From the NCBI GenBank assembly GCA_017443585.1, contig JAFSYV010000069.1, forward strand, positions 1 to 33,755: a DNA stretch of 33,755 nt, read 5' to 3'. The translations under genes and the position numbers were made by a program. Each line of letters opens with the position of its first letter. Within the stretch, counting starts at the first letter, position 1. The notes beneath the pieces are model-generated. The model had not been told where the DNA came from. It did no database searches and saw only the letters and a list, made by a program, of their open reading frames with translations. Positions 3,205 to 29,732 of this stretch are shown piece by piece. The stretch is from Lentisphaeria bacterium (lineage in GTDB: Bacteria > Verrucomicrobiota > Lentisphaeria > Victivallales > Victivallaceae).

Positions 3205-3233
3205 TTGCTTTTCTCCTTTTCAGGCGGTACATT
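3205..3233 (+). promoter_or_regulatory. Predicted promoter of the DUF4838 operon
   Basis: A -35 box TTGCTT (3205-3210), a 17-bp spacer and a -10 box TACATT (3228-3233) followed by ATG. Transcription would begin near 3240, giving a leader of about 45 bases with a strong ribosome site GGAGG at 3274-3278. Confidence 0.45.
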
Positions 3234-3285
3234 ATGAGCAGTCGGACCGAAAACTTGCGTCGATCAGCCAAAAGGAGGACCCCGA

Positions 3286-6228: not shown

Positions 6229-9176
6229 AAACGTCCGCCTCGATTCAAACCGTCGGAGTGTGCCTGCTGCTTATGATCAGCTTCGCCGCCGGGGCGGCGG
6301 CGCCCTTTTCGGTCACTCCCGTTTCGCCCCGGAGCGTCACTGTTTCCGCCAAAGCCGAACTGCCCCTCGTCCGTCAGGGGAAGCCCCTCTTCCGCGTCTA
6401 TGTGCCGCCCAAGGCCCCCGCTTCCGTCCGGACCGCCGCTGCCGATTTCGCTCGACTTCTGAGCGAGATTTCGGGCGGAGCGCAGGTTTCTGCGGAAAGC
6501 CGGATCCCGGCGGGATTCTCTGGCCCGTGTTTCTGCATCGGCGACGGGGCTCTCGCCGCCGAGCTTGAAGTCGATCTCCGGGCGTTGGACCGGGACGGTT
6601 TCGTCATCAAAACGGCGGGAGGGAAAAAAATCCTCATCGCGGGGAGCGATGCCGTCTTGCCCGGTTCAGGCAACGGGACGCGCTTCGGCTGTTACGAATT
6701 CCTGGAGCGTTTCGCTGGTGTCCGCTTCTACTTCCCCGGCCCCCTCGGGACCGTGGTCCCCGTGAAAAAGGAGTGGAGTTTGCCGCAAATCACGATCTTC
6801 GACCGGCCGGACTCCCTTTTCCGGGTCATCTACTGGCCCGCCCCCGGCGGGGCGAAACCCGGCTGGTACGATCCCCGGACCGAAAACCTCTGGCGCGGGG
6901 AGCTGGCGCTCCATGAAAAGCACCTCCGTCTTTCCACACTGGCCTTGCCCAACTGTCACGGGCTGGCCCAGTTGGGATATGTCCAACGCTTCGCGAAAAG
7001 CCATCCGGAGTACTTCGCCCTCAAGTCCGACGGCAGCCGCTGTGACGGTTCCGTCGTCCGTGTTCCCAGCGATGCTTCGGGGCACCTCTGCTTCAGTTCC
7101 GGCATCATGGAGGAGATTTTTCAGGACGCAAAGGCGATCCTCACGGGGCAGCCCGCCTCCAGCCGCAACGTGATCCTCCGCGACGGCTCCTGCCGCTGGA
7201 TCCATCACAACCGCAACTTCTTCAACCTGATGCCCAACGACTCCATGGCCCGCTGCCGGTGTGAGAAGTGCGCGCCCTATTTCGAGGGCCTTTCCGCCGG
7301 GGGCGGATACAGCGAAAAGGCGGCGGATTTCCTCTGGACCCGGCTGCTCACCATCCCCAAGCGGCTGAAGAAGGAGGGCGTGCCCGGCTTCGTCACCATG
7401 ATGGCCTATGACCTCAACCGCTTCCCGCCCAAGGAGAAGATGCCCGAAAACGTCCTCATCCAGGTGGCGACCACGGGGCCCTGGCTGGAGGGCCGTCCCG
7501 AGCAGAAGAAGGACGACGAACTCATCCTCCGCTGGGTCAAGACCATGGGGAGCAGCAAGATCTACATGTGGAACTATCCCACCAAGTGCACCGTGAAGGA
7601 GCTCCCTTTGATCCCCAATCACACGCCTGAATCCATCGGCGCCTACTACCGGCGGATGTTCCCTTACAGCTTCGGGACCATGCTCAACGCCTCCTCGGAC
7701 TACTGGTTTTTCGGCCATCTCAATTTCTACGTCTTTTCCAAGGTCATGTGGGACCACGACACCGACGTCGAGGCGCTGCTCAAAGAGTATTTTTCCACGA
7801 TGTTCGGCAAGGGAGCGCCCTTCATGGCGAAGGTTTCGCGGATACTGGAAAGACATTGGATCGACGACATCTGCGGGAACAAGGTGGAGACCTCCTACGG
7901 CCCCGTCACCTATCCCCCCTCGGAACTGAAACTCTGGACGCAAATTTTTTCCGCCGCGGAAGTTGACCGGATAGAAGACCTTTTCGCGCAGGCCGAAAAG
8001 GCCGCTGCCGGAGACAAAAGGGCCCTCGAACGCATCCGGCTCTGGAAGGCCGCCATGTGGACTCCCACCGCCGAGGGCCGCCGCCGCTGGTTCGGCGACC
8101 GGCGGGCCGCCGAAGAGTGGACCGCCCCCATGATCTCCGTCAAACCCGGCGAAAAGCTCACCTGGGCGGGCGTCCCCAAGGTCGCCCTCTTCCCCATCAA
8201 GGGGGGCCCTGCCGAGGTGCAGACCTTCGTGCAGATGCGCTGTGACGAAAAATATTTCTACTTCCGGTTCGACTGCCGGGAGCCCTTCACCGACCTGATG
8301 GCCGCGTCGCCGCGAAAGTTCGAGGACCGGGACGTCTGGCGCGACAACAGCGTGGAGATCCACATCGACACGGAAGGAAAGAGAAAAACCGAGTACCAGA
8401 TCATCGTCAACAGCTGCGGCTCCGTGGGGGACCTGCGGAACACCCCCGCGAACTTGGGCGAAGAGTGGAACTGGAACTCCGGGGCGGAAGCCCGGACCGC
8501 CGTTACGCCCGGAAAGGGCTGGATCGCGGAAATAAAAATCCCCCGTTCCGGCATGGCTCCCGTTTCGAACGGGAAATTCCACATCAACTTCAGCCGTCAC
8601 CGGTCGCTCAAGGGAAAGAACGTGACGCCTTACTACTGCTGGAGCCCCTTCGCCAAAACCTTCGCCGATCTGGCGAACTTCGGCACGGGGCTCATCGATC
8701 CGAAAGGGAACAAAAATCTCTTCAGTGACCCTGATTTCGCCGAAACGGGGGTGAAAGGGGCGAAAGCTCCCCGGTGGTACGGGGCCCTTCCGGAAAGGGA
8801 CGAAAAGATCTTCCGGACGGTGGGAGTCGCCATGAGATTCAGCGGCAAGCACAGCGAGCTCGTCCACCGGGTCCCCATCAAACCCGGCACGCGCTACCGT
8901 CTGAGCTTCTGGCTGAAGATGGACCGCGTCGCCCTGCTCCCCGGCACCCGGATCACGGACGGAGGATTTTACTTGCGGATCGATGAAGGGGGCAAAGCCC
9001 ACTACTTCCCCTGGCCCGCCTACCTGGGAACGCTCCCGTGGCAGCGTCTGGAACACACCTGGAAAACGGAGGACGCGATAGGGAAATCCTACCGGCCCTA
9101 CATCCATTTCACCTTGCGCAAATGCAGCGGCACGGCGTGGGTCGACCACGTCGAACTCACGGAACTTCCCAAATAA
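6225..9176 (+). CDS. Secreted DUF4838 protein with C-terminal carbohydrate-binding modules (paralog B)
   Basis: A 983-residue tandem paralog of the preceding protein with the same domain order: signal peptide (about 1-25), GH67-N-like domain (about 55-180), DUF4838 (about 190-540), CBM9-like module (about 640-820) and a final jelly-roll (830-980). Shared blocks include [24 protein letters not shown] and MPNDSM, and the cysteine cluster is RCRCEKC. The frame is open far upstream, but the ATG at 6225 starts the signal peptide and overlaps the upstream stop by 4 bp, so translation is probably coupled. Divergence is high outside the core blocks, implying an old duplication with altered specificity. 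The enzymatic activity is unproven. Confidence 0.88.
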
Positions 9177-10011: not shown

Positions 10012-12122
10012 GAACCATGAAAAAAGAGACTTCTTACGGATTCCGCGCCCGGATGCGGGAATATTACTTCCGGCCCTGCCGGGTCCCGGAAGCCGTTCTT
10101 CGTCCGGGCGAAGTCGAGATCGATTCGAAGTGGAGCGTGAAGACCGCCGACCCGGCGGAGTTGCTCCTTGCCCGGGCATTGGCCGACCTGAGCCGCTTCT
10201 TCAAGACGGCCCTCGGCTGCCCCCTTTCCGGCGCGGGCGAAGGCCCGGCGATCCTCATTTCCGCCGGGAACGCGGTCGGGGAGCGGCCCTCGTGCCGGTT
10301 CGACGTGAGTGAGAAAGGCGTCGCCGTCACGGGGAACAACCCCAGGGGGGCTCTTTACGGCGTCATCCACCTCGAAGACCTGATGCGGCTCCGGGGCGGT
10401 CCTTTTCTGCCCGCGGGAAGTTTTACCTACACGCCCCTCGCCCGGATGCGGAGCACCCACTCCGGCTCCGGTTTGGATGATTTCCCCGACTGGCAGCTGG
10501 AGTGCATCCTCCACGCCGGGTTCACCGCCATCGACCTTTTCGTCAAGGGGATCGACGAGACCACCCAGGGCCATTACGACATCGGCGACCTCATCGACCG
10601 GGCGGCGGGTTACGGGCTGGACGTGGTGCTCTACAACTATCAGACCTGCTACGTGCACCCGGAGGACGAGGGGGCCGACGCGGCCTTCGACCGGGTCTTC
10701 GGGAGTCTGTTCCGGGCCTACCCCCGCGCGGCGGCCCTTTCCCTCTGCGGGGAGTCCCTCGAATTCCCCAGCCGGGACGAGACCACGATCAAGAAATCCG
10801 AGGTGGAAGAGGGCTCCGAAGGCCTGCAGGACACGAAACAGCCCACGGGGTATTTTCCCAATTCCGACTACCCGGCCTACCTGGCCAAACTGAGCGACGC
10901 GGTCCACCGGGCCGCTCCGAATGCGGAGGTGATCTTCAGCACCTACAACTGGGGCTGGGCGCCTCTCGAACCCCGGAAGAAGTTTCTGCGTTCAATGCCC
11001 AAAAGCGTCTCGCTTCAGGTGACTTACGATATTTTCAAGAGCAACCGCACGGAGGGGCTTTCACGGCCGCTCATGGATTACTCCATCTTCGCTTCCGAGC
11101 CGGGGGAGTACTTCGAGACCGAGGTCAAGGCCGCCGCCGAAGCCGGGATAAAAAATATCCGGGTCACCTCCAATCTGGCGGGGACCACCTGGGACTTCGG
11201 CTGCGTGCCCTACGCCCCCGTGCCCTTCCGCTGGCTGAAGAGGATGCGGATCCTCAAAGAGTATCTGCTGAAATACGACGTGAACAGTTTTTACGACTCC
11301 CACCACTTCGGCTGGTTCCCCAACGTCTGCGATGACCTGGTCAGGGCGGTCTTTTCGGACCGGGAGCCGGAGGATATGGAAGCGTTCCTGCACGACGTCG
11401 CGGTTCGGGACTACGGACGTGCCGCCGACGCCGTGATGGGAGCGTGGAAGATCTGGAGCGACGCCATGGACCACTACGTGGGCTCCAACGAGGACCAGTA
11501 CGGCCCTTGGCGGGTAGGCCCGGCCTATCCCTTCGTCTTCCACCCGACCATCTCCCGGACCATGGACGAGAAATACGTCCGCTTCCCCTTCACGGACAGA
11601 GCTTACAACTGCAATTGCATGGTGAAGACCATGTACGCGCCCTTCGAAAACGACGCCCAGTCCCCCGGCCCCCTGCGGCAACCGGTGGAGCTCCGGGAGC
11701 TCGAAATCATGCTCGGCATGTGGGAGCAGGGGACGCACCTTCTCGAGAAGGCACTTGCCGCCTTCCCGGAAGCCGATCCCCGGCGGGAAGAGCTGGAACG
11801 GCTCCTCGGCCTCGGGCTTTTTATCCGGAACATGATCCGGACCACCACGGGCATCAAGCGCTGGCGCGCGGCCAACTTGCAGCTCCAGTGCTGTTCCGAC
11901 CGGGAGGGAATGGAAAAGAAACTCGACGAAATTTCGGCTCTCCTCGAAGCCGAACGGCAAAACGTGCTCGAAACGATCCCCCTCGCCGAGGCCGATTCCC
12001 GGCTGGGCTGGGAGCCCCGGATGGATTACGTCTGCGACGGTGCCCATTTGAAGTGGAAGCTCCGCCAGCTGGCCATCGCGGAGGAGGAAATAAACGCTTA
12101 CCGGAAGATGATCCGGCTGTAA
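10008..12122 (+). CDS. Cytoplasmic glycoside-hydrolase-like protein (GH20/GH67-type N-terminal domain, TIM barrel)
   Basis: A 704-residue protein (701 if it starts at the second ATG, 10017). No signal peptide is seen. Residues about 40-130 look like the alpha/beta domain that precedes the barrel in GH20, GH67 and GH84 enzymes ([20 protein letters not shown], 107-126). Residues about 145-450 read as a TIM barrel, with CGESLEFP at 247-254 placing Glu249 as a candidate catalytic acid. The remaining C-terminal part is largely helical. I cannot assign a GH family; an exo-glycosidase acting on imported oligosaccharides would fit. It begins inside the stop of the pseudopilin gene and is 21 bp before the aminotransferase gene. 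Confidence 0.65.
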
Positions 12123-17921: not shown

Positions 17922-19085
17922 GTGAAAGTTCTTTTCAGCACACTCTTTCTTGCGGCGGCTTTCTGCGTTTCGGGAGCGAAGTTCGAGCCGGGCGTCGCCG
18001 GGCAGGCCCTGCGGGGCCGGGTCGGCGTTCCTTACGACAGCGAAAAGATCACCCCGAAAGGCGGTTCGGCGGCCTTCTGGTTCAAGCTGGACAAATCCCC
18101 CGCGGAGCTCCGGAACGCCATGCCCGTCTGCTTCGGCACCGTCGGCGCCGGCTGGTGCTACACCCGGTTCGACCGGGGGGCTCTGGGGATCAACTTCAAG
18201 ACCGGGAAGGGGTTTTCCGGCACAAGCTGTCCCGTCCCGACTCTCGCTCCGGGGGAGTGGCACCACGCCGTCTTCGTCTGGGGGATCAGGAAGGAACAGG
18301 GGTTCCTGCGGATCTACGTGGACGGGGAATTGAAACTCTTCCAGCGTCTGACCCTGCCGGAAAAATTCTCTCCCGGGAAATTCGCCGTGGGCTACAACTC
18401 AGGGAACTGGAAGGGCCCCGACTTCCCCGGTCTGCTGGATGAGATCGCGGTCTTCGACATGCCGATCCCGGAAGAGACGGTGAAAAAACTGTACGAAACG
18501 GGCAAAAAGGGCGGTTCTCTGCCGGAAACGCCGGGCATGCTCCTCTATCTGCCCTTCGACGGGAACACGACGGCGAAAACGGGGGTTTCCGCTCCCGGGG
18601 AGGTGCGGACCAAAAACTTGCGGGCCGCCGCCCGCAAGGCCAAGGTGAAAAAGTATCCCGACGAGATCGAGTTCCGGTACTCCTTCACCGCGCCCTGCCC
18701 GGAGGAGAAACTGCCGGGGGCCCTGAACGACGGCAACGATGCGAGCGGCGTCCACTGGCGTCAGCGCTCCATCGCGGTCATCGGGGAATTCGACGGCACC
18801 GTCGACGTGGCGGAAATCGAGATCACCACCCGGAAATACACGAAGTGGTATCTGCTGAAACAGCTCCATGTCAGCTGGGACGACGGCTCCGGGAACTTCT
18901 GCGATCCCGCGATCGTCGACACCTACGCCAAGGGAAAGCCTATCGGCAAGGCACTGGTGGACGACACCTGCCGGACCTACGTCTACAGCGTGAAGAATCC
19001 GGGCAAAATGTGCCGGTTCAAGGTGGTCCCCGTGGGGGACGGCTACTTCGGGATCAACGAGATAAGAGTTCGGGCCAAAAAATAA
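17922..19085 (+). CDS. Secreted LamG/concanavalin-like protein with C-terminal discoidin-like domain
   Basis: A 387-residue exported protein starting at GTG, with AAGGAA at 17907-17912. A signal peptide covers residues 1-19 (cleavage probably after VSGA). Residues about 30-190 are a LamG-like jelly roll, shown by EWHHAVFVW (112-120), IYVDGEL (131-137) and LDEIAVFD (172-179). Residues about 250-387 resemble an F5/8 type C (discoidin) domain, with GALNDGNDASGVHW at 266-279. No catalytic residues are evident. It probably binds polysaccharide and may support the large glycosidase-like protein encoded 17 bp downstream. It follows the pseudopilin gene by 13 bp, so these genes are probably cotranscribed. 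Confidence 0.8.
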   Translation: MKVLFSTLFLAAAFCVSGAKFEPGVAGQALRGRVGVPYDSEKITPKGGSAAFWFKLDKSPAELRNAMPVCFGTVGAGWCYTRFDRGALGINFKTGKGFSGTSCPVPTLAPGEWHHAVFVWGIRKEQGFLRIYVDGELKLFQRLTLPEKFSPGKFAVGYNSGNWKGPDFPGLLDEIAVFDMPIPEETVKKLYETGKKGGSLPETPGMLLYLPFDGNTTAKTGVSAPGEVRTKNLRAAARKAKVKKYPDEIEFRYSFTAPCPEEKLPGALNDGNDASGVHWRQRSIAVIGEFDGTVDVAEIEITTRKYTKWYLLKQLHVSWDDGSGNFCDPAIVDTYAKGKPIGKALVDDTCRTYVYSVKNPGKMCRFKVVPVGDGYFGINEIRVRAKK

Positions 19086-19101
19086 ACGGGAGGGAGTTTT
19101 C

Positions 19102-22100
19102 ATGTTTCGCTTTTTTCTTCTGGCGGCGGCCGCGCTGACTGTATGGACGGCGGGAGCCTTCGAGATCAGGAATGCCGATGTGGGGGGCGTCCGGATGACC
19201 AAGGTGGATTCTCCCTACTTCAGCATCACCGTCAACCCCCTCGGGGGGCGCTTCTGGAGCATGTACAGCAAACTCCTCAAAGCGGAGCTTGTGGATCCCT
19301 CCCAGGACGGCAGCGGCACGGAAAACGTCTGGAACGTGGGCAAGAGCCGCTTCTTCCTGCGCGGGAAGCCCTTCATCATTTCCACGGAAAAGTTCCCCGA
19401 CCGGGCGGTGGTGACTTCCGTGGGCAACCATCAGGGGGGCGGCATCAACTTCCTCCGGGTGAAAAAGTCCTACACGGTCTGGAAGGACGCCGCCAAAATC
19501 ACCATCGACTACGATCTGGAAAACATCGCAGACGCCATGTCGCCGCTTGCTTACGGCTTCTGGTTCCACCACATGATCGGCGAACACAAGGTGAAGAACG
19601 ACTTCTTCTATCCCACCACCCACGGCATCGTCCGCATCACGCCGGATAAACGCCCCACGGACACCTGGCAGTTCCGGGGCTCCCGGGGCTGGCTGGGCAG
19701 CGCCGACCCCAAAACGGGCCGGGGCGTGGCCATCACCATGGAGTACCCCCGGCTGAAGGTCCTCTACACCTGGTTCCAGGGGTGCAACGTGCCCACCACC
19801 GAGTGGCGGTTCGAAATGGTCACCATCGACGCGGGACACTCCTTCCGCACGAGAGCGGAGGTGCTTCCCTTCACCGGGCTGAAGAAGATCTCCGGCGCGG
19901 GCGGCGGTCTCGTGGGTGAACTCCGCGGCGCGGACGTGGAAACGGAAAAGACTTCGGTCCCCGTCGAGGCGCGGGTCCACAACGCTTCCGCCGGGACCGT
20001 GGAGGCGGAAGTCATGATCCGGCAGGCCCCGAAGGGCGCGTGGCGGAGCTGCGGGAAACACACGCTCGTCTTCGACGCTCCCGGCACGGTGAAAAGTTTT
20101 CCCTTCACCGTCAAGGGCGCGGACGAGACATTGCAGGAGATCGAAGTCATCCTGCGGTCGGGGAAAAAGGAGTCGGCCCGGCTCAACGGCTTCGTCAATT
20201 TCGGCGGCGCCGAGGAAAAATGGGCCGTGGCCCCCCTCGAGGAAAAACTCCTCGACGAACGCAGCCGGGTGGAATTGCTGGGCTTCAATCATGTCAATCC
20301 CACGCCCCACATCCCCTGGGCCAAGCCGCTCCCCGGCGGCAAGATCAAGACCATGGTCCTGACCCAGAATGACAGCATCCTCGAAGTCGGGGAAATGGCC
20401 CAGCGCCTCGATATGGACTTCACGGTCCCCTATCTTTACGCCACGGGGCGGCACAAATCCCTCAGCCCCATGTACCGGCTCGGGGACTACTTCGGCATGC
20501 TTTCGGTGAGCGACATCGACGCGAATTTGAAGCGGGCCTTGGCGAAGAAGTACGATTTTCTCATCATCGCCGGGCTGCCCTGGGGATACTTCAACGCCGC
20601 CCAGCAGAAGGCCATCGCTGAGAAGGTGAAGCAGGGCGCGGGGCTGGTCTACATCGGTCCGGAAAAGTCCGACAGCTTCATGCCCCTCAAAAAAGTTTCC
20701 GGCAGGCAGATCGTTTCGGGGCTGCCCAAGGCGGTGAAGAAACATTTCGTCACGCAGGGGATCCCCTTCGAGCTCTTCGAACCGGGGCCCGTCCGCCGCT
20801 TCGCGGCCCCCGCAACTCAGGTGCTGGCCGCAGTGAAGGGGACTCCCTATCTGGTCGAGGGCCGTTACGGGAAAGGAAAAACCTTCTTCCTCACCTACCC
20901 CGCCAGTTTCGGCCGTTTCGATGCGCAGGCGGGTTTCACCCCGAACTTCAAACCGGAGTACGCCGACCGCAAGGCCCCCTATGAACTCTACTACTCTCTC
21001 ATCGCGAAGCTCGCCCTGGCCGCGACCGGCAGGACGCCTGCGCTGACTTTCGAGCCCCGCTTCACGCCCGAGGGGATCATGCTTGAAATCGATTCCCCCG
21101 ACGCGCGGCAGGTGACGGTGACGGCGGCGGTCCGGGACCGCTTCATGGTCGAACGCGCGGCTCAGACTTCGCAGCTGACCTTGAAGAAAGGCACGGGGGA
21201 ATTCCGGATCGCTCCGGCCCTGAAGCCCCACGCCGGACCCCAGCTGCTCGACGTCATCGTCCGGGACAAGAAGAGCGGCGCCGTGTTGAACTGGGGTTCG
21301 TGGAGCGCTTCCGCTCCCGCCCCCGCCCGGATCGCCGGGATCGTTCTCGACCGGAAAGCCTATGATGCGGGCGAAAAGGTGAATTACACCGTCAATTGCA
21401 AGGGGAACTTCCCCGGCGTGACGGTGAAAGCGCTCCTCATCGACTCCTTCGGACGGGCTTTCCCCGCGAAGGCGGCCCCCGCCGCCGAGGCGGTCAAGGG
21501 GGAATTGATGATCGACGACCGGCTCTGCTCCCGCTTCAACACCTTGCGGGTCACCCTGGAGCACAAAGGGACGGAGATCGACCGCCGCGAAACGGGCTTC
21601 CCCGTCCGGCCCGCGGACAAGGCCCGTGCGTGGCAGGGGTTCGAGGTCGGGACCTGGCTTTCGGGCGACGGCCCCCGCGCCCATCTGTGGCCTCTTTATG
21701 CAGGATTCCTGCACAAGTACGGCATCGACACGGTCATCGCCAACTGGGGGACGATGCAGACCACCTTCCCCATCCGGCACAATCTCAATCCCACCCGGCT
21801 GAACCATCTGGGGATCACCCGCTGCGCCGAGCCCCTCGAATACGCCAAGACCGGCAACAAGAGGCTTTTGGTGCGCAAGCCCTGCCTGTCCGATCCGGCC
21901 TTTCTCGAGAAGAACCGGGCCGAGTTCGAGAAATTGGGTAAGGCGGACCGCATCTACGCCCTGCGCTTCTACTGGATGGGAGACGAACAGTCCATCACCG
22001 GCTACGGCGGGACCCCCACGGACTTCTGCTTCTCGGAGCACTGCCTCAAGCTCTTCCGGGAGTTCCTGAAGAAGAAATACGGCTCCCTCGAACGCCTCAA

Positions 22101-23637
22101 CAGGGAGTGGAACACCGCCTTCGCAACTTGGGAGAAGGTGCTCCCCCTGACCAAGGACGAAGTCTGGAAGGGAAATGAAAAATCCGTCGCGGGCTGGGCC
22201 GACCACCTGGAGTTCATGGACAGCCGTCTGGAAGATGTGGCGCGGATCATGTTCGCGACGTTGCGGAAGAACGATCCCGGCGCGAAGACCTCCATGTCGG
22301 GCACCCAGCCCTCCACCGCCTACGGCGGCATGGACTGGAGCCGCCTGATGAAGCACTTCGACGGCCTCATGAACTACGCCCTCGGGGGCCAGTTCGAGAT
22401 CCAGCGCTCCCTGCGCCCCGGCGCGGAGCTGATGCCCTGGCAGTTCGGCTACGCCGGAAGGGGCAGCAGCAGCAGCATCTGGCGGGCGCTTTTCACCGGG
22501 ATGCGGGGGGCCTTCGGCTTCGCCTGGCCCAGTCTGTGCAATCCCGACGGGACGCCCGCGCGTCAGCTCAAGGCGGTCCAGCGGCCCTTCAGGATCATCA
22601 AAGCCGGCGCGGGCGACCACTGGATCCGCAACTTGCGTGAGCGGCCCCGGACGGCGATCCTCTACTCCCAGAGTTCCATCCGGGCGGCCTTCATCGAGAA
22701 GCGCCACCGGAGCCGGAACACCAGCTTCGACAAGTTCAACGCGCTGCTCCGGCACTGCGGGTACAATTTCACCTACATCACCTCGGAACAGCTCGAAGCG
22801 GGCGTCCTGCTCAAGGGGGATTGGAAGAATCTGATCCTGCCCGACACGGGGGCCATGTCCGACAAGGAGGTCGAAATGGTGAAGGCTTTCGTCAAAAAGG
22901 GCGGACGCGTCTACGCCGAGGGGATCCCCGCCCGGCGGTACGCCAACTGCCGCATGCGCTCGACTCCCGCCCTCGCGGAGATCTTCAAGATCGGGGGAAA
23001 TGTGCTGAAGGAGAAGCCTTCCTACGTCTATCTGGAAGCCCTCTCCTTCCCGGAAAAGCCCGACAACAACCGGATCCTGACCGGGGAACAGCAGGAGCTG
23101 CGCCGGGTTCTGGGCCCCAACGACGCCCCAAGGCTTACTTCGGAAGGGAAGAGTCTCCCCGAGACCGAGGTCTACACCCGTTTCGATCCGCAGGGGAACC
23201 TTTACGCGGGGATCATCACTCCCGTCGTGAAACAGCGGCCCCTCAGGATCGAGCTGGGCGGAAAGGCGTATGTGTACGACATGATGACCCACCGCAATTA
23301 CGGACAGGTCTCGACCGTCGAGGTCCCGGTCTTCTGCGAGTCCATGCCGCTGCTGCTGGCCGTGCTGAAGAAAGCCCCCAAGTTCCTCGCGGCGGAGGTG
23401 AAAGGCGATACGGTGACGGTGAAATTCGAGCCCGCCGACTGGACCACGACGGTGGAGCTGCGGCTCTTCGCGCCCGACGGGAAAGAGGTTCCCCACTACG
23501 GGAAACGGCTCCTCGTTTCGGGCGGAAGGGGGAGCTGGGCCATACCCTTTGCGCCTTCCGACGCTTCCGGCGTGTGGAAACTCCAGGCGACTGATGTCGT
23601 CACCGGGCAGAGCCGCACGACCTCTTTCGGACGCTGA
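19102..23637 (+). CDS. Very large secreted GH42-like multidomain protein
   Basis: A 1511-residue exported protein with a signal peptide at residues 1-19. Residues about 20-260 resemble a mutarotase-type beta-sandwich. Residues about 470-610 look like a class I glutamine-amidotransferase-type fold (YDFLIIAGLPWG). Residues about 850-1180 form a TIM barrel with GH42-like features: YWMGDEQ with candidate acid/base Glu962, then LFREFLKKKYGSLERLNREW, a hallmark of GH42 beta-galactosidases. Residues about 1185-1310 resemble the GH42 trimerisation domain (LILPDTGAMSDKEVEMVKAF). A beta-sandwich follows. The nucleophile is not clear; Glu1109 is a candidate. Beta-galactosidase-type activity is inference. 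GGGAGGGAG precedes the start. Confidence 0.8.
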   Translation: MFRFFLLAAAALTVWTAGAFEIRNADVGGVRMTKVDSPYFSITVNPLGGRFWSMYSKLLKAELVDPSQDGSGTENVWNVGKSRFFLRGKPFIISTEKFPDRAVVTSVGNHQGGGINFLRVKKSYTVWKDAAKITIDYDLENIADAMSPLAYGFWFHHMIGEHKVKNDFFYPTTHGIVRITPDKRPTDTWQFRGSRGWLGSADPKTGRGVAITMEYPRLKVLYTWFQGCNVPTTEWRFEMVTIDAGHSFRTRAEVLPFTGLKKISGAGGGLVGELRGADVETEKTSVPVEARVHNASAGTVEAEVMIRQAPKGAWRSCGKHTLVFDAPGTVKSFPFTVKGADETLQEIEVILRSGKKESARLNGFVNFGGAEEKWAVAPLEEKLLDERSRVELLGFNHVNPTPHIPWAKPLPGGKIKTMVLTQNDSILEVGEMAQRLDMDFTVPYLYATGRHKSLSPMYRLGDYFGMLSVSDIDANLKRALAKKYDFLIIAGLPWGYFNAAQQKAIAEKVKQGAGLVYIGPEKSDSFMPLKKVSGRQIVSGLPKAVKKHFVTQGIPFELFEPGPVRRFAAPATQVLAAVKGTPYLVEGRYGKGKTFFLTYPASFGRFDAQAGFTPNFKPEYADRKAPYELYYSLIAKLALAATGRTPALTFEPRFTPEGIMLEIDSPDARQVTVTAAVRDRFMVERAAQTSQLTLKKGTGEFRIAPALKPHAGPQLLDVIVRDKKSGAVLNWGSWSASAPAPARIAGIVLDRKAYDAGEKVNYTVNCKGNFPGVTVKALLIDSFGRAFPAKAAPAAEAVKGELMIDDRLCSRFNTLRVTLEHKGTEIDRRETGFPVRPADKARAWQGFEVGTWLSGDGPRAHLWPLYAGFLHKYGIDTVIANWGTMQTTFPIRHNLNPTRLNHLGITRCAEPLEYAKTGNKRLLVRKPCLSDPAFLEKNRAEFEKLGKADRIYALRFYWMGDEQSITGYGGTPTDFCFSEHCLKLFREFLKKKYGSLERLNREWNTAFATWEKVLPLTKDEVWKGNEKSVAGWADHLEFMDSRLEDVARIMFATLRKNDPGAKTSMSGTQPSTAYGGMDWSRLMKHFDGLMNYALGGQFEIQRSLRPGAELMPWQFGYAGRGSSSSIWRALFTGMRGAFGFAWPSLCNPDGTPARQLKAVQRPFRIIKAGAGDHWIRNLRERPRTAILYSQSSIRAAFIEKRHRSRNTSFDKFNALLRHCGYNFTYITSEQLEAGVLLKGDWKNLILPDTGAMSDKEVEMVKAFVKKGGRVYAEGIPARRYANCRMRSTPALAEIFKIGGNVLKEKPSYVYLEALSFPEKPDNNRILTGEQQELRRVLGPNDAPRLTSEGKSLPETEVYTRFDPQGNLYAGIITPVVKQRPLRIELGGKAYVYDMMTHRNYGQVSTVEVPVFCESMPLLLAVLKKAPKFLAAEVKGDTVTVKFEPADWTTTVELRLFAPDGKEVPHYGKRLLVSGGRGSWAIPFAPSDASGVWKLQATDVVTGQSRTTSFGR

Positions 23638-23645
23638 AGTTTCCC

Positions 23646-23666
23646 GTTTCCGCCGGAAGCTTTTTT
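23646..23666 (+). terminator. Predicted intrinsic terminator after the GH42-like gene
   Basis: GTTTCC (23646-23651) pairs with GGAAGC (23655-23660) around a GCC loop, with one G-T pair, and is followed immediately by six T residues (23661-23666). The stem is short but the layout is classic. It separates the glycosidase operon from the protease operon. Confidence 0.5.
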
Positions 23667-23672
23667 CCCTGC

Positions 23673-23701
23673 TTGCAATTTGAAAAAACAGGGTGTATAT
23701 T
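23673..23701 (+). promoter_or_regulatory. Predicted promoter of the Clp-FtsH-like protease operon
   Basis: A -35 box TTGCAA (23673-23678), a 17-bp A-rich spacer and a -10 box TATATT (23696-23701) preceded by TG and followed by A. This is among the best promoters in the window. Transcription would start near 23708. Confidence 0.6.
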
Positions 23702-23702
23702 A

Positions 23703-23722
23703 GCATGGAGTGTGCTTCATGC
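23703..23722. promoter_or_regulatory. Imperfect palindrome at the protease operon start site
   Basis: GCATGGAG (23703-23710) and CTTCATGC (23715-23722) are 8-bp arms with one mismatch (a G-U pair in RNA) around TGTG. It spans the predicted start of transcription, so it may be an operator or a 5' mRNA hairpin. Confidence 0.35.
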
Positions 23723-23748
23723 GGTCACCGAACGAAAGGGAAATGAAT

Positions 23749-26736
23749 ATGGCGGAAAACGAGTACGAAAAGATCCCCCCGAGAACTCCCCGGTATGCGG
23801 CGGTCATGGAGGAGGCCGGCAAACGGGCTGGCGCCCGGGCGGCTTCCAAGGGCGGCGATGCCGTCGTGACGATATCGGATGTCTTCGAGGCGCTGTGCCT
23901 CATCCATCCGGAGTCCTTCTCTCTGCTGACGAACACCCCCGTCACGCTGCCGAAGGCGGCTCCGGCGGAGTGCGATCCGCTCCCGGCGGTCGTCTACCAT
24001 TCTCCGGAGGTCGACAAATATCTTTCCCCTTACGGGGGCGTCATCGCGGAGGTGCTCTCCTCTTTCGAATCCCGTGAGGTGATCGTCGATTCTCTGCACA
24101 TCGCGGGAGCTCTGCTCTGGGAGCCGACCCCCGAGATCCTGAACCTCCTTTCCGTTTCCGGCGCGACGCAGGGCGTGATGCGGACCGCGGTCACGGCCGG
24201 GCTCAGACGTGAGGCGGAAACAGCCGCGGCGGAGCGCCGCAAAGCGGGCCTGGCCTCCTCGTTCGAGAATGTCGAAAAGATACGGAAATACCTTTCCGAA
24301 AACTGTTTCGGACAGGATTCGGTCATAAATGCCGTCATCACCCAGCTTGCCATCGCCTGGGGGATGCCCGCGGCCGAACGGGGGGCGAAGCCGCTGTCGT
24401 TCTTCTTCGTCGGCGCCCCCGGCACGGGCAAGAACCATCTGACCTCCCTGATCCAAGATGCGTTCGAATCCTTCCTCGGCATTCCCAGGATCCGGGTGGT
24501 GGATTTCGCCCGTTTCGCCACGGAGCAGCTGCCGATGGACCTGATCGGCAGGGATTCCAACTGGAAGGACGGCGGGCACGAAGGCGTCCTGACGGGGGCG
24601 GCGGCGGCCAACCCGCGGGGCGTCATCGTGATCGAAAACTACGAGCGGGGCCATGAATGCGCGATCTCCTATCTGGACAGCATTCTGGAAACCGGCTACG
24701 CCGTGGACGAGTTCTCCAAGCAGAACATCTGCTTTTCCGGCAACGTGTTCATCATCATAACGCACAAGAAGGAGTTCGCCGACTCCGATGAGTTTCTGAA
24801 GCTTGTTTCCAAGGACGGCGAAAATCCGCCGCGGGACAAGATCGTCGAAGGGCTCGTGAAGTTCGAGCCGCGCTTCCAGTCCACGCTCCGGCTCGTGGAT
24901 GCCCCCATGCTGTTCCGGAAGCACGATTTCAAGTCCTTTTTCGCGATCGTCAAGGCCAAATTGTCCGCCCTTGCGCGCCGTTTCGAAGGGGCCTACGACG
25001 TGTCGTGCGAGTTCGGCTCCGAGGATGTCCTGCGCCTTCTCATGGAGATGCATCCCAATGTGGAGTCCGCCCATCCCATCATATCCGCGCTCGAGTCGGC
25101 CATCCTCATTCCCCTGCAGGACTGGCTGCTGCAGCATTACGGCGAATTCGTGCCGAAGCGGAAGATCCGCATCGAATGCGATCCCCTGCCCGATTTCGAA
25201 GGGGCCCCCGAGCGCGGTGCGTTCGATTCCTTCGAGGAATGGATGGAAGAGCGCACGAAACGCCGCATCCTCCGGGCGAAGCGGCTGGTCTTTTCGCATG
25301 AGATCGGCGTCACCGATGATGCCGTCGTGCTGAAGATGAGGAACATTTCCTACACCATGATGCCGAGCATCGAGGATGCGGGCTATTTTTCGGTCACGGT
25401 GCCCGACGTCTCGTTCGACGATCTCGTCGGGGTCGATATCGTGAAGGAGCGGGTCTCCGAGGTCCTGCACTATTTCGAACATCCCGACAAGGGGGTGCGC
25501 CCCGATACCGGCATCATTCTGTACGGACCGCCGGGCACGGGCAAGACTTCCGTCGCCAAGGCGATCGCCAAGGAGCTGGGCGTTCCCTTCATCCTGGCCA
25601 TGGGGGCGGACTTCAGCCGGCAGCGCATGGGCGAGGGCGTCGAAAGCGTGAAGAAACTTTTCGCCGCCGCCCGGCGCTACGGAGCCGTCCTCTTCATCGA
25701 CGAGATCGACGGCATCGGCTCCCGCGAGCAGGAGGCCCGCGGCGGTCATAGCGAGGGGGCCCGGATCATCAATGCCTTCCTGACCGAGCTCGACGGGTTC
25801 CGCGCGAGGAACATGCTCGTCATCGGCGCGACGAACCGCTACGAGACCCTCGACGAAGCGCTGATCCGTCCCGGTCGTCTTTCGCTCAAGATCCGGCTGG
25901 GGCTGCTGCACAAGCCGGAGGACCGGAAAAAACTGATCGAGGGAGCGTTGAAAAATGCGCGGGCGGAAGTTTCGCCCGAACTCGTCGCCCGGCTCGTCGC
26001 GACGACCAATTCCTGGTCGCCGGCCAACCTGATCGCCATGATCAACTGCGGCATCAGGATCGCCCGCCGCGAGGGCCGGGAAATCGAATTCGGGCATTTC
26101 GCCAGGGCCCGGACCGTCGTGACGCTGGGCGAAGATCCCCAGCAGCCGGAGAACTCCGACGCCGAGAGACATCTCGTCGCGGTGCACGAAGCGGGGCATG
26201 CCGTGACGGCGGTCCTGCGCGGCATCCCCTTCGTTCAGGCGACGATCGAGGGCGCGGGCGGGGCGGCCGGTTTCGTCGAACATTTCGGATTGCAGAGATT
26301 TTCGACCGCGAAAGACCTCGAATGCATGATCGACATGTGCCTGGGCGGCCGTCTGGCCGAGAAGGAACTGCTCGGAGAGCCCTCCAGCGGGGCGCTTTCC
26401 GACTTCGAACACGCGACGGCTCTGGCCGCCGACATGATCCGCCTCGGACTTACCGACGGGAATCTGATGGCCGTGGCGGGGGAATCCGCCAGGATGTTCG
26501 CTCAGAGCCACCGCCCGCAGATAGAGGCCATCCTCCAGAAAAGGATGGGCAGCGTCCGGGAGCTTCTCCATGACCACCGGAGGTTTCTCGAGGCGGTCAC
26601 GGAGGCGCTCGAAGCCCAGAAGATGCTTTTCGAAGAGGACATCCGCTCGATAGAAGACAGTCTGTCGGCGAAAAGGCCGGCAAGAAGGCCGTCGAGAAAG
26701 ACGGCGAAGAAGAATCCGGACGGCGGTGCGCGATGA
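23749..26736 (+). CDS. Soluble Clp-FtsH chimera: Clp-N-like repeats, degenerate ClpA/B-type AAA, FtsH-type AAA, M41 zinc protease
   Basis: A 995-residue protein with no signal peptide or membrane segment. Residues 12-150 hold two Clp-N-like repeats. Residues 175-470 resemble the ClpA/B D2 AAA domain: CFGQDSV, Walker A GAPGTGKN (222-229), then a Walker B position reading VIVIEN (292-297) instead of hhhhDE, with no GYVG pore loop and no Arg finger. Residues 553-790 are an FtsH-type AAA: GPPGTGKT (593-600), LFIDEID (648-654) and Arg707/Arg710 in the RPGR segment; the FVG pore loop is replaced by RMG (626-628). Residues 800-970 are an M41 peptidase with HEAGH (813-817) and third zinc ligand Asp885. 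The tail is basic. AAGGG at 23736-23740 supports this start. It should unfold and degrade cytosolic substrates, but target and trigger are unknown. Confidence 0.88.
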   Translation: MAENEYEKIPPRTPRYAAVMEEAGKRAGARAASKGGDAVVTISDVFEALCLIHPESFSLLTNTPVTLPKAAPAECDPLPAVVYHSPEVDKYLSPYGGVIAEVLSSFESREVIVDSLHIAGALLWEPTPEILNLLSVSGATQGVMRTAVTAGLRREAETAAAERRKAGLASSFENVEKIRKYLSENCFGQDSVINAVITQLAIAWGMPAAERGAKPLSFFFVGAPGTGKNHLTSLIQDAFESFLGIPRIRVVDFARFATEQLPMDLIGRDSNWKDGGHEGVLTGAAAANPRGVIVIENYERGHECAISYLDSILETGYAVDEFSKQNICFSGNVFIIITHKKEFADSDEFLKLVSKDGENPPRDKIVEGLVKFEPRFQSTLRLVDAPMLFRKHDFKSFFAIVKAKLSALARRFEGAYDVSCEFGSEDVLRLLMEMHPNVESAHPIISALESAILIPLQDWLLQHYGEFVPKRKIRIECDPLPDFEGAPERGAFDSFEEWMEERTKRRILRAKRLVFSHEIGVTDDAVVLKMRNISYTMMPSIEDAGYFSVTVPDVSFDDLVGVDIVKERVSEVLHYFEHPDKGVRPDTGIILYGPPGTGKTSVAKAIAKELGVPFILAMGADFSRQRMGEGVESVKKLFAAARRYGAVLFIDEIDGIGSREQEARGGHSEGARIINAFLTELDGFRARNMLVIGATNRYETLDEALIRPGRLSLKIRLGLLHKPEDRKKLIEGALKNARAEVSPELVARLVATTNSWSPANLIAMINCGIRIARREGREIEFGHFARARTVVTLGEDPQQPENSDAERHLVAVHEAGHAVTAVLRGIPFVQATIEGAGGAAGFVEHFGLQRFSTAKDLECMIDMCLGGRLAEKELLGEPSSGALSDFEHATALAADMIRLGLTDGNLMAVAGESARMFAQSHRPQIEAILQKRMGSVRELLHDHRRFLEAVTEALEAQKMLFEEDIRSIEDSLSAKRPARRPSRKTAKKNPDGGAR

Positions 26737-27629
26737 GTACACGCGGAGCGGAAGTTTTCTGGCGGCCCCGTGATCCGGGAGCCGGGGGGGACAAGGTGCG
26801 GATGCTGGATTCCGAGCTTACGGCTTACATCTCGGACAAGAAACCGATGATAATCGTCGAGAGAGAATCGGTCGAAGATCCCGCGTGTTTCTGGATCGAC
26901 CATGAGCATGTGTACCTCAGGATCAACTGGGAAAAGTGGGCGCCGGTGAGTCGGAGCAACCCCGAACTGGCGGCCTCCCTCTGCCGCAGCCGTTACTGCC
27001 GGGTCACCGCCGTGGTGGACAAAGTGGTGGCCGACTGCATCGTGCCCGTTTTTCATATTGCCGCGCTGCCGGAGGAGCTCTTCGGGCCGCCCCGTACCGA
27101 AAGTGCGCCGGAAAACCGGGGGGGCGAAGGCTCCGACTCCAACTCCGGCTCCGACTCCGACTCCGACGACGAGGACATGTATCAAGGATGCCTTATGACG
27201 GTTTTGGAGGCCGTGGGATCTCTGTCCCGTGATGCGGGGGTCTACGAGCATGTGAAATTCGGGGGAGACTCTCCGACTTTCGTGATCAAATACGGCGATC
27301 GCACCCTGATCCTGGATGCCCTGCCGCCGGACCTGGAATTCTTTATCTTCCTTCCCGCCGGGACCGGGGAAGATCACGGTCCGCTGGAACGGGAGTGGGA
27401 GAAGGGGCTGATCTCCCTGGGCTTCATCGAAAGATTGAAGCGGATGGAAAAGTTCGCCGCCCGGATGGAGCCGGATTCCGTCGTCCGTGCCGGTTTTCTC
27501 GCCAATCCCGACGCCCTGGATATGCTGCGGGCCCTCACGAGAGCCGAAGACATCGCCGGCATCGAACTCCTGAGCTACAATAGCCTGAAAGACCGCCTCG
27601 CGGACCTCCTTGCTCTGAAAGAGGATTGA
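26733..27629 (+). CDS. Unrecognised protein, partner of the Clp-FtsH-like protease
   Basis: A 298-residue protein I do not recognise. It overlaps the protease gene by 4 bp (ATGA), so it is cotranscribed and probably translationally coupled. No signal peptide or membrane segment is seen. Residues about 20-120 form a compact beta-rich-looking unit (MIIVERESVEDPACFWIDHE). Residues 130-150 are an acidic, low-complexity Ser/Asp linker. Residues about 150-298 form a second unit (FVIKYGDRTLILDALPPDLE, then helices). Its size, pairing and two-domain layout with a flexible linker would suit an adaptor, inhibitor or substrate of the protease; this is inference from context only. The gene ends 12 bp before the GH16 promoter. 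Confidence 0.75.
   Translation: MSTRGAEVFWRPRDPGAGGDKVRMLDSELTAYISDKKPMIIVERESVEDPACFWIDHEHVYLRINWEKWAPVSRSNPELAASLCRSRYCRVTAVVDKVVADCIVPVFHIAALPEELFGPPRTESAPENRGGEGSDSNSGSDSDSDDEDMYQGCLMTVLEAVGSLSRDAGVYEHVKFGGDSPTFVIKYGDRTLILDALPPDLEFFIFLPAGTGEDHGPLEREWEKGLISLGFIERLKRMEKFAARMEPDSVVRAGFLANPDALDMLRALTRAEDIAGIELLSYNSLKDRLADLLALKED
27129..27164 (+). repeat. Six tandem hexamers (consensus GRCTCC) encoding a Ser/Asp linker
   Basis: The units are GGCTCC, GACTCC, AACTCC, GGCTCC, GACTCC and GACTCC, followed by GACGAC. They lie inside the partner gene and encode alternating Ser and Gly/Asp/Asn. Because the unit is six bases, slippage would change linker length without a frameshift. Confidence 0.75.
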
Positions 27630-27641
27630 AGCGGACCTTCC

Positions 27642-27670
27642 TTGAAAATTGCCGCCGCGCCGTGTATATT
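27642..27670 (+). promoter_or_regulatory. Predicted promoter of the GH16-dehydratase-SDR operon
   Basis: A -35 box TTGAAA (27642-27647), a 17-bp spacer and a -10 box TATATT (27665-27670) preceded by TG. Transcription near 27677 gives a leader of about 48 bases to the ATG at 27725 and rules out the in-frame ATG at 27671. Confidence 0.6.
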
Positions 27671-27681
27671 ATGCGGCGCGG
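27655..27681. promoter_or_regulatory. Perfect inverted repeat around the -10 box of the GH16 operon (candidate operator)
   Basis: CCGCGCCG (27655-27662) and CGGCGCGG (27674-27681) are perfect 8-bp arms with an 11-bp A/T-rich spacer that contains the -10 box. A dimeric repressor bound here would occlude RNA polymerase. Confidence 0.5.
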
Positions 27682-27724
27682 AACGAAAGAGAGATCACTG
27701 CGGGAACGAGGAGGGTTTTCTGCC

Positions 27725-28552
27725 ATGAAGGAATATCCGGTCGAGGGACACGAGGCGAGTTTTCTCCCCGAGGGAGAGTGGAAAATGGTCTGGAACGACG
27801 AGTTCGACGGAACCGTTCTGGACAGGAGCAGGTGGGATTACCGGCTGTCCATGATGGGCAGGCGGCATCCCGCCTGGACCGACCGGGGGGTGACCCTCGA
27901 CGGCCAGAGCAACGCGGTCTTTTCCCTGCTGCTGGAGGAGGGCCGTCCGGTGAGCTCCCAGCTCCAGACGGGGTACAATTTCATGGATGAGCCCGTGGTC
28001 CCCACCAAGTTCGGGCACGACCATCTCCAGTGGAACATCGGCAAACTCAAAAGAGATCTCTACACCCACACCTTCGGGTACTACGAATGCCGCTGCAAGC
28101 TCCAGCAGCATCCCGAAGCCTGGTGGAGCGCTTTCTGGATCCAGTCCCCCGTCATCGGGGCCTCCCTCGATCCCGCGGAAACGGGCTCGGAGCTGGACGT
28201 GATGGAGTGCTTCGACTACGGTGAAGTCCACCACCACAATGTGTTCACGGGCGGCTACGGCCTCGACAGCAAGCGGGCTTCCGTCGGCGGCTTGAAAGGT
28301 CTGGACCAGACCGTCTTTCACCGTTTCGGGCTCCTCTGGGACGAAACGGGCTACACCTTTTACGTGGACGGGAAAGAGGACGGGCATATCGGCGAGTACG
28401 TTTCGAAACGGCCCGAATTCCTGCTCATCAGCACCGAGGTGAAGGGATACCGTTATGAAGATCATCAGCCGGTGAAGGAGGCTTTCGACCTTGCGGGCAA
28501 GGACTTCTTCACCGTGGATTACGTCCGGGTCTTCGACCCGGTCGGGGAGTGA
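27725..28552 (+). CDS. Glycoside hydrolase family 16 protein, no signal peptide
   Basis: A 275-residue protein. It begins the fold with MVWNDEFDG (21-29) and carries the catalytic GH16 signature ELDVME, with nucleophile Glu156, Asp158 and acid/base Glu161. WWSAFWI (133-139) and FYVDGK (212-217) are also family hallmarks. GH16 enzymes cleave beta-1,3 or beta-1,4 linkages in glucans, agar, carrageenan or porphyran; specificity cannot be read here. The lack of an export signal is unusual, as most GH16 enzymes are secreted, so it may act on imported oligosaccharides. The start at 27725 is chosen for its GAGGAGGG site (about 27706-27713). The next gene starts 4 bp after its stop. Confidence 0.88.
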   Translation: MKEYPVEGHEASFLPEGEWKMVWNDEFDGTVLDRSRWDYRLSMMGRRHPAWTDRGVTLDGQSNAVFSLLLEEGRPVSSQLQTGYNFMDEPVVPTKFGHDHLQWNIGKLKRDLYTHTFGYYECRCKLQQHPEAWWSAFWIQSPVIGASLDPAETGSELDVMECFDYGEVHHHNVFTGGYGLDSKRASVGGLKGLDQTVFHRFGLLWDETGYTFYVDGKEDGHIGEYVSKRPEFLLISTEVKGYRYEDHQPVKEAFDLAGKDFFTVDYVRVFDPVGE

Positions 28553-28556
28553 AAAA

Positions 28557-29732
28557 ATGAAGATCACCGCGCTCAAGACTTTCATCTGCAATGCCTTCCG
28601 GACCAATTTCGTCTTCGTGAAGGTGGAAACCGATTCAGGTCTCCACGGCTGGGGCGAAGCCACGCTGGAATACCGGGAACCGACCGTCCAGGCCGCGATC
28701 CACGATCTGGAAGGCTACCTCATCGGCAAGGATCCCCACAACATCGAAGCGTTCCGCCACGACTGCTACCGGGACGCCTACTGGCGGGGCGGCCCCGTGC
28801 TCATGAGCGCCCTGGCCGGGGTGGAAATGGCGCTGTGGGACATCAAGGGCAAGGCGCTGAACGTGCCCGTCTACCAGCTGCTGGGGGGCAAGGTCCGGGA
28901 TGCCGTGCCGGTCTATGTGAACGGCTGGTTCGCCCCCGCCAAGACCCCGGAGGAGTTCGCCGCCAAGGCTGTGGAAGTTCGGGAAAACCGTTACCCCGGC
29001 TGCAAGTGGGACCCCTTCGGCAAGGCGTGGCAGCAGATCGGCAAGAAGGAGCTCGAACAGGCCATGACCTGTATCGAAAAAGTTTCCGAAGCGGCGGGGA
29101 ACGACGTCCAGCTCCTCATCGAGGGCCACGGCCGTTTCGACATCCCCACGGCGGTCAAGATCGGGAAACGGTTGGAGGATTTCGACGTCTTCTGGTTCGA
29201 AGAGCCCATCCCCCCGGACGACAAGGAAGGTCTGCGCGAGGTCAAGGAGCGGGTCCGGGTCTCCATCGCCGCCGGGGAGCGGCTCTACAACCGTTACGAA
29301 TTCCGGCAGTTCTTCGACCTGAAGTGCGCCGACTATATCCAGCCGGACATCTCCCACGCAGGCGGCCTCATGGAGATGCGGATGCTGGGCGCCGAAGCCG
29401 AGGCCCGGCACGTGGGCTTCTGCCCCCACAACCCTTCCGGCCCGGTGGCCAATGCCGCGACGCTCCAGCTGGCGGCCTGCGTGCCCAACTTCGTGATGCT
29501 GGAAATGATGATGACCGACGTGCCCTGGCGGCGGGAGATCTGCGACGAAAAACTGGTCATGCGCAACGGCTGCATGGTGATCCCGGAGCGGCCGGGACTG
29601 GGGATCGAACTCGACGAAAAGGAACTACTCAAACATCCCTACATCCGGACCGAACTGCGCCACTACAAGGGGACTTTGACCGACATCCGGCCCCCGGACG
29701 CGGTCAGGTACTATGAAATGGAGAAGAAGTGA
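28557..29732 (+). CDS. Enolase-superfamily sugar-acid dehydratase (galactonate dehydratase-like)
   Basis: A 391-residue member of the mandelate racemase/muconate lactonising family. An N-terminal capping domain (1-120) is followed by the barrel: KWDPFG (150-155) with Lys150, IEGHGR (188-193) with Glu189 and His191, FEEP (214-217) with metal ligand Glu215, AGER (239-242) with Glu241, PHNPSG (290-295) with His291, and Glu316. The pattern is closest to D-galactonate dehydratase-type enzymes, which turn an aldonic acid into a 2-keto-3-deoxy acid. The exact acid is not determinable. A product of this type could feed the HpaI-type aldolase elsewhere in the window. GGGGAG precedes the start; its stop overlaps the possible GTG start of the SDR gene. 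Confidence 0.88.
   Translation: MKITALKTFICNAFRTNFVFVKVETDSGLHGWGEATLEYREPTVQAAIHDLEGYLIGKDPHNIEAFRHDCYRDAYWRGGPVLMSALAGVEMALWDIKGKALNVPVYQLLGGKVRDAVPVYVNGWFAPAKTPEEFAAKAVEVRENRYPGCKWDPFGKAWQQIGKKELEQAMTCIEKVSEAAGNDVQLLIEGHGRFDIPTAVKIGKRLEDFDVFWFEEPIPPDDKEGLREVKERVRVSIAAGERLYNRYEFRQFFDLKCADYIQPDISHAGGLMEMRMLGAEAEARHVGFCPHNPSGPVANAATLQLAACVPNFVMLEMMMTDVPWRREICDEKLVMRNGCMVIPERPGLGIELDEKELLKHPYIRTELRHYKGTLTDIRPPDAVRYYEMEKK

Follow-up and report, generated by a model that had tools for sequence, protein, structure and literature searches.

Can a Clp-type unfoldase and an FtsH-type zinc protease reside in a single bacterial polypeptide, and if so, what would such a protein do? The question is raised by a gene in the window, the whole stretch of 33,755 nucleotides that was analyzed, which comes from a Lentisphaeria bacterium. 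A preliminary description had read this gene as one 995-residue chain joining Clp-N-like repeats, a ClpA/ClpB D2-like AAA domain, an FtsH-like AAA domain, and an M41 zinc protease, with no membrane anchor and in an order known from no described protein.

Domain architecture of the chimeric protease

The gene is a single open frame of 995 codons on the plus strand with an ATG start; an in-frame GTG lies 39 bases upstream of this ATG. From the N to the C terminus, the product comprises a helical N-domain, a ClpA/ClpB D2-type AAA+ module (D1), an FtsH-type AAA module (D2), and an M41 zinc protease. Its features are as follows, type B being one of the two types of relatives defined below.

23749..26736, plus strand: Clp-FtsH chimeric protease (type B), 995 aa (Pfam, ClpB/ClpA D2 matches, full-length relatives)
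23785..24243, plus strand: N-terminal helical domain, residues 13-165, weakly Clp_N-like (profile comparison; helices of the model)
24259..25182, plus strand: D1, residues 171-478, Clp D2-type, catalytically degenerate (structure matches, profile comparison, motif alignment)
24412..24435, plus strand: D1 Walker A GAPGTGKN, with Lys228 kept and Thr replaced by Asn229 (alignment)
24562..24564, plus strand: D1 pore-loop Trp272, at the position that Tyr occupies in the pore loop of type A (alignment)
24634..24639, plus strand: D1 Walker B Glu296-Asn297 instead of Asp-Glu (alignment)
25399..26133, plus strand: D2, residues 551-795, FtsH-type, ATPase motifs intact (Pfam AAA; fold match)
25525..25548, plus strand: D2 Walker A GPPGTGKT (translation, alignment)
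25693..25704, plus strand: D2 Walker B FIDE, with Asp651 and Glu652 (translation, alignment)
26155..26652, plus strand: Peptidase M41 domain (Pfam; genome search at the same place, 2.7e-18)
26185..26199, plus strand: zinc motif HEAGH, residues 813-817 (translation, alignment)
26401..26403, plus strand: Asp885, the expected third zinc ligand (Asp at the aligned position in every complete protein of types A and B)

Pfam placed AAA at residues 589-718 (2.2e-36) and Peptidase_M41 at residues 803-968 (7.8e-18); in the first half it gave AAA_2 and Torsin, both weakly, and Clp_N had no match on the N-domain. Among the NCBIfam models, those of ClpA, ClpV, and ClpB fell on residues 171-477 and that of FtsH on 550-960, with scores far under the equivalog cut-offs. 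When residues 168-478 were compared with solved structures by phmmer, ClpB D2 was the best match (6.8e-14), ClpA D2 followed at about 2e-8, and Hsp104 and ClpC were also matched. Profile comparison of D1 with cellular Clp D2 modules gave 99.6% (1.5e-24). The protein is not an ordinary FtsH that was misread, since about 550 residues with Clp D2 homology precede the FtsH half in one frame, both in the window and in its relatives.

D2 and the protease domain carry complete motifs, and in the predicted model the fold of residues 551-970 matches FtsH (Z 28.2 over 401 residues, rmsd 7.8). The full-length model, built as one chain only with ten type A relatives as the alignment, reached a mean pLDDT of 61.6 and a pTM of 0.36; the AAA cores and M41 stood at about 75-90, the linkers and the N-domain lower. 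It thus supports the predicted fold of the AAA-M41 half and is silent on rings. The highest 19-residue hydropathy in the protein was 1.33, compared to 2.0-2.4 in four membrane-anchored FtsH controls. Because this maximum is well under that of the controls, no membrane helix is apparent, and the protein looks soluble.

D1 of the window protein departs from a working ATPase site in several places. In addition to the asparagine in Walker A, Walker B reads VIVIEN where hhhhDE is expected, the sensor-1 Asn is replaced by His, the arginine finger SR has become ST, and the sensor-2 Arg is absent. Because the residues of all these motifs are changed, D1 of the window protein probably does not hydrolyze ATP.

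The N-domain is the weakest part of the assignment. Its helices were modeled with low to moderate confidence, and the structure matches to the full model were filled by AAA and protease chains. Profile-profile comparison of N-domains gave 96.5% for type A versus Clp N, 86.9% for type A versus type B, and 49% for type B versus Clp, so that the link of the window-type N-domain to Clp_N is transitive, through type A. A Clp_N-like N-domain is thus likely in type A and plausible in the window protein.

Altogether, the Pfam, NCBIfam, and structure matches agree with the preliminary description on a single chain holding a Clp D2-type AAA module, an FtsH-like AAA module, and M41 with HEAGH and Asp885. 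The match to ClpB D2 likewise upholds its premise that the N-terminal half is related to Clp, and the hydropathy comparison its statement that there is no membrane anchor. Of the Clp-N-like repeats, only the indirect profile link stands.

Two types of relatives

The same domain order was found in at least 17 distinct loci, 11 of type A and 6 of type B, and the window protein is therefore not unique. Type B consists of the window protein and those of genomes G114, G106, G181, G328, and G319, all in the window's phylum. The 11 type A loci, collected by searching named genomes with a stretch specific to the family, are spread over Lentisphaerota, Acidobacteriota, Planctomycetota, Thermodesulfobacteriota, Nitrospirota, and Bacillota; three loci of that search (L069, L073, and L078) are those of genomes G169, G087, and G036 and were counted once in the total. 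Ten of the 11 are complete, with 1148-1200 aa, two Walker A motifs, two Walker B motifs ending in DE, and HExGH, and one ends at a contig edge. Both ATPase sites are thus intact in type A, and type B proteins are shorter. By eye, an extra segment between the AAA modules of type A looks receiver-like. With Glu-Asn in D1, the window protein does not have both Walker B motifs ending in Asp-Glu, as type A does, and it belongs to type B.

With the N-terminal half of the window protein as the query, window-type proteins were found in 3 of the 137 genomes of the order, namely, its own, G114, and G106; among the other genomes of the genus (34 searched) and of the family (78 searched), none was found, and some of the collections searched may omit records near the window's own genome. 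A class-level search added G181, which brings type B to 4 of 198 genomes of the class, and G169, of type A. The G169 protein, used as a query, led to G087 and G036; G328 and G319 came from a search of the phylum with a profile. In the family to which one Bacillota host belongs, 3 of 299 genomes carried type A. Among the type A hosts is Lachnospiraceae bacterium NE2001 (L076). In addition, a relative of the Lachnospiraceae chimera (L119, genome G473) lies in a 1625-aa frame, longer than the others, and was matched over residues 196-993 of the query only.

The G114 and G106 proteins are 68-69% identical to the window protein over their full length, and the substitutions between the window protein and these close relatives fall mainly at third codon positions; the chimera is therefore not a product of chance. 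The contig does not appear to be a contaminant either, because its composition, compared on stretches of genome, fits that of its own bin (tetranucleotide r = 0.946). The window genome also encodes a canonical FtsH, as do 6 of 7 type A genomes checked. Since the two coexist, the chimera is an extra protease and not a replacement for FtsH.

The changes in D1 are largely common to type B. Its Walker B motif ends in EN in five of the six type B proteins and in DN in the sixth, compared to DE in all 11 type A proteins, while the Walker A lysine and the pore-loop Trp are kept in 6/6. The window protein and its two close relatives, G114 and G106, have also lost sensor 1, the arginine finger, and the sensor-2 arginine. 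Thus, the term "two-ring-like ATPase," which had been applied to the window protein, describes type A better. The Walker motifs of D2 and the M41 zinc motif are complete in 6/6 type B proteins. At the aromatic position of the D2 pore loop, type A has Trp or Tyr and FtsH has Phe; most type B proteins have Arg, His, or a gap there. Because this aromatic is mostly replaced, pulling by the type B D2 may be weak.

In a tree of the FtsH half, type A formed one group at 100/99, and type B formed one group at 100/100 without G181; long branches were flagged. The FtsH module of A and B together stood apart from canonical FtsH at 84/83, and D1 of A and B stood apart from cellular Clp D2 at 100/99. A shared origin of the FtsH part across both types is thus not firmly supported, and the trees are compatible with one fusion event. 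The simplest reading of these sequences is that the fusion took place once and that D1 decayed afterward in type B. The layout with two intact motors is retained elsewhere, in type A of six phyla, and the window member belongs to a derived branch in which one ring is probably silent and a partner gene is linked to the protease.

Partner gene and genomic neighborhood

Directly behind the protease lies a second gene, which the preliminary description leaves unmentioned.

26733..27629, plus strand: partner gene, 298 aa, whose start overlaps the protease stop by 4 bases (ATGA) (co-occurrence, adjacency)

Within the order, the 3 of 137 genomes with relatives of the partner are precisely those that have the type B protease. 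A model built from these first three partners also detected an overlapping partner behind the G319 protease (1.5e-23) and, more weakly (0.027) but in the same adjacent position, one behind the G328 protease. The small overlapping gene downstream of the G181 protease aligns by eye and has no profile match; it was not counted as a sixth partner. Divergent loci have in common the motif PAxFWIDxxHxYLRxxWxxWxxVS ... PVYHIxxLP. The partner evolves faster than the protease (35-40% versus 68-72% identity), its length ranges from 172 to 516 aa across loci, and acidic low-complexity stretches occur in three loci. No Pfam domain was found above the cut-off in the partners, the window partner included, apart from a C-terminal phosphopantetheine-attachment-type, acyl-carrier-like domain (2.4e-6) in that of G114 (L032, 11930-13006, minus strand), which is absent from the window partner. 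The G106 partner (L033, 14026-14910, plus strand) showed a subthreshold match to bpX4 (0.0078; 16.3 bits versus a cut-off of 27), a domain of MoxR-vWA-beta-propeller ternary systems. Modeled alone from its single sequence, the partner gave an uninformative pLDDT of 35.6.

By Pfam, the window is mostly a region of carbohydrate use.

3286-6228 and 5904-9176: two DUF4838 proteins (Pfam)
19102-23637: GH42-like protein, 1511 aa (Pfam)
27626-28552: GH16-like protein (Pfam)
28491-29732: enolase-superfamily protein (Pfam)

Further genes encode AraC- and GntR-type regulators and a pseudopilin-like DUF1559 protein, and Pfam detected no kinase, effector, MoxR, or vWA gene near the chimera. Since the neighbors are mostly carbohydrate genes, this context says little about the role of the chimera. 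Very long antisense frames lie opposite likely genes, e.g., at 3232-6183, 19054-23706, and 23725-26742 (all minus strand); such frames are expectable at 62% GC and were not accepted as genes.

Several type A loci (Lentisphaerota, Thermodesulfobacteriota, and Bacillota) have genes for an FHA-kinase, a PP2C phosphatase, and a kinase with WD40 or TPR repeats beside the protease, which suggests control by phosphorylation. At L069, a rhomboid protease gene (10523-11293, plus strand) sits between the type A chimera and the FHA-kinase gene, and a 345-aa frame directly before the chimera (5913-6950, plus strand), with no Pfam match, resembles the N-terminal part of type A by eye. Downstream of the type B protease of G114, a row of genes on the same strand (L032, 1109-11675, minus strand) encodes two vWA proteins, a kinase, a calcineurin-like phosphatase, a transglutaminase-like protein, and a 1395-aa protein with repeat-like sequence. 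A 929-aa frame near the G181 chimera (L034, 15008-17797, plus strand) looks Hsp70-like by eye, with no significant Pfam match.

A phage or plasmid origin was rejected because the best plasmid and phage matches do not extend beyond the FtsH half, which makes up about 40-45% of the query. Four plasmid proteins among the matches proved, on translation, to be membrane FtsH. No chimera was found in the phage, plasmid, or viral collections, the viral_contigs scans among them. Nor did it belong to a known defense family, as PADLOC models matched only general AAA or kinase domains.

Proposed mechanism and relation to known systems

The explanation that we consider best, and hold with about even confidence, is that the window encodes a soluble, self-contained AAA+ zinc protease in which D1 would be a non-hydrolyzing platform, D2 would drive degradation, and the partner would act as an adaptor. 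The sequence itself shows the order of the domains, the intact motifs of D2 and of the protease, a degenerate D1, no apparent membrane helix, and a linked partner; that the protein is a hexamer with stacked rings, which nucleotide state D1 adopts, that the enzyme is proteolytic, and that the partner is an adaptor are what we infer. The protein may have arisen when a Clp D2-type unfoldase module was joined to the half of FtsH that holds its ATPase and protease. On the model of these two families, it most likely forms a hexamer, with two AAA rings stacked on an M41 chamber. The D1 ring of type B may bind ATP without hydrolyzing it; mutants of other AAA+ proteins in the catalytic Glu of Walker B bind but do not hydrolyze ATP. 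The D1 Trp would line the pore and contact the substrate chain, and D2 would hydrolyze ATP and feed the chain, perhaps weakly, to the HEAGH zinc sites. The overlapping partner most likely would serve as an adaptor that selects or tethers substrates.

Alternatively, the partner may be a dedicated substrate or inhibitor, with the pair forming a regulated cleavage switch in which the partner is processed or released on a signal. The much faster evolution of the partner, its acidic stretches, its variable length, and its gain of an acyl-carrier-like domain in one genome point this way, and the loss of most D2 pore-loop aromatics suits limited cleavage over processive unfolding. However, the aromatic-rich motif FWID..H.YLR..W..W..VS is kept across divergent loci and suggests a folded binding domain in the partner, and we regard this alternative as unlikely. 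Slightly less probable still is that the family is a signal-controlled conflict or stress system, in which the kinase, phosphatase, and FHA genes would activate the protease to destroy proteins of the host or of an invader. The kinase and phosphatase genes at type A loci, those with vWA genes at G114, and the patchy spread of both types are consistent with this, and FtsH-containing ternary systems have been described as conflict systems (PMC7159879). On the other hand, the window locus lies among carbohydrate genes, with neither a kinase nor an effector nearby by Pfam, the PADLOC matches are general, and the mobile-element collections contained no chimera. It is barely credible that the chimera reflects an error of assembly or annotation, or a gene in decay: the degenerate motifs of D1 and the 7.45% contamination of the bin would fit, but the recurrence of the order, the conservation of the close relatives with changes concentrated at third positions, the Walker B changes common to type B, and the fit of the contig to its bin contradict it.

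The chimera is thus a real, conserved combination of familiar parts, apparently undescribed as a combination. In the literature searched, from which subscription journals were largely absent, no description of the order Clp D2, FtsH AAA, and M41 was found, in line with the preliminary description. If active, the soluble protease as proposed above would offer a compact system in which to ask what a second ring contributes, since both rings are intact in type A and one is apparently switched off in type B, with the overlapping partner as a candidate adaptor. A bolder reading, which we put forward tentatively and with less than even confidence, is that these loci represent an undescribed class of soluble AAA+ proteases in at least six phyla, with a two-ring unfoldase and a zinc protease in one polypeptide; in a derived branch, one ring would act as a naturally occurring trap of the Walker B type, keeping hold of substrate without consuming ATP, complemented by a dedicated adaptor from the overlapping gene.

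The closest known systems each share part of this layout. Like the M41 proteases FtsH, m-AAA, and i-AAA, the window protein has an AAA module followed by an HExGH protease with an Asp ligand in one chain; however, FtsH has one AAA module and membrane helices, whereas the window protein has no apparent helix, carries about 550 residues of other domains before this AAA module, and scores 236 bits against the FtsH model TIGR01241, whose equivalog cut-off is 600. With the Hsp100 proteins ClpA, ClpB, and ClpC it shares a Clp D2-type AAA module, the presence of two AAA modules in each chain, and plausibly a distantly Clp_N-like N-domain. Clp unfoldases either work with ClpP, a separate serine protease, or have no protease, whereas here the protease is built in and the second module is FtsH-type. 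Moreover, the Clp order is D1 and then D2, both complete, while the first of the two AAA modules in the window protein is the Clp D2-type one, from which the catalytic Glu is missing. FtsH-related AAA proteins of the chloroplast Ycf2-FtsHi motor were among the fold matches of the window model. This motor is membrane bound and serves import, and its FtsHi subunits have no working zinc site, whereas the zinc site of the window protein is intact.

The FtsH-containing MoxR-vWA ternary systems have a third component with two AAA modules, the first inactive and the second an active FtsH-type module, and ClpN repeats and vWA proteins occur in them (Kaur et al. 2020, PMC7159879). Nonetheless, both AAA modules are called FtsH-type there and the term M41 is absent from the text, whereas the window protein has a Clp D2-type D1 and an M41 domain. 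MoxR and vWA genes accompany the ternary systems; by Pfam, none lies beside the window gene, and vWA occurs at one relative, G114. Cdc48/p97 has two stacked AAA rings, as proposed for the chimera, and in eukaryotes its D1 is without aromatic pore residues while D2 keeps them (PMC7226402). It has no built-in protease, and the type B pattern is the reverse, in that D1 retains the aromatic and D2 has mostly lost it. The same review divides these machines into one-ring enzymes with a built-in protease (FtsH and Lon, in which each subunit contains both AAA and protease) and unfoldases of one or two rings that rely on a separate protease (ClpXP, ClpAP, ClpCP, and HslUV); it notes that ClpA, ClpB, and ClpC contain two AAA modules and that FtsH-like proteases are uniquely membrane anchored (PMC7226402). 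Unlike these usual bacterial layouts, the present family joins two AAA modules to a built-in metalloprotease with no apparent membrane anchor.
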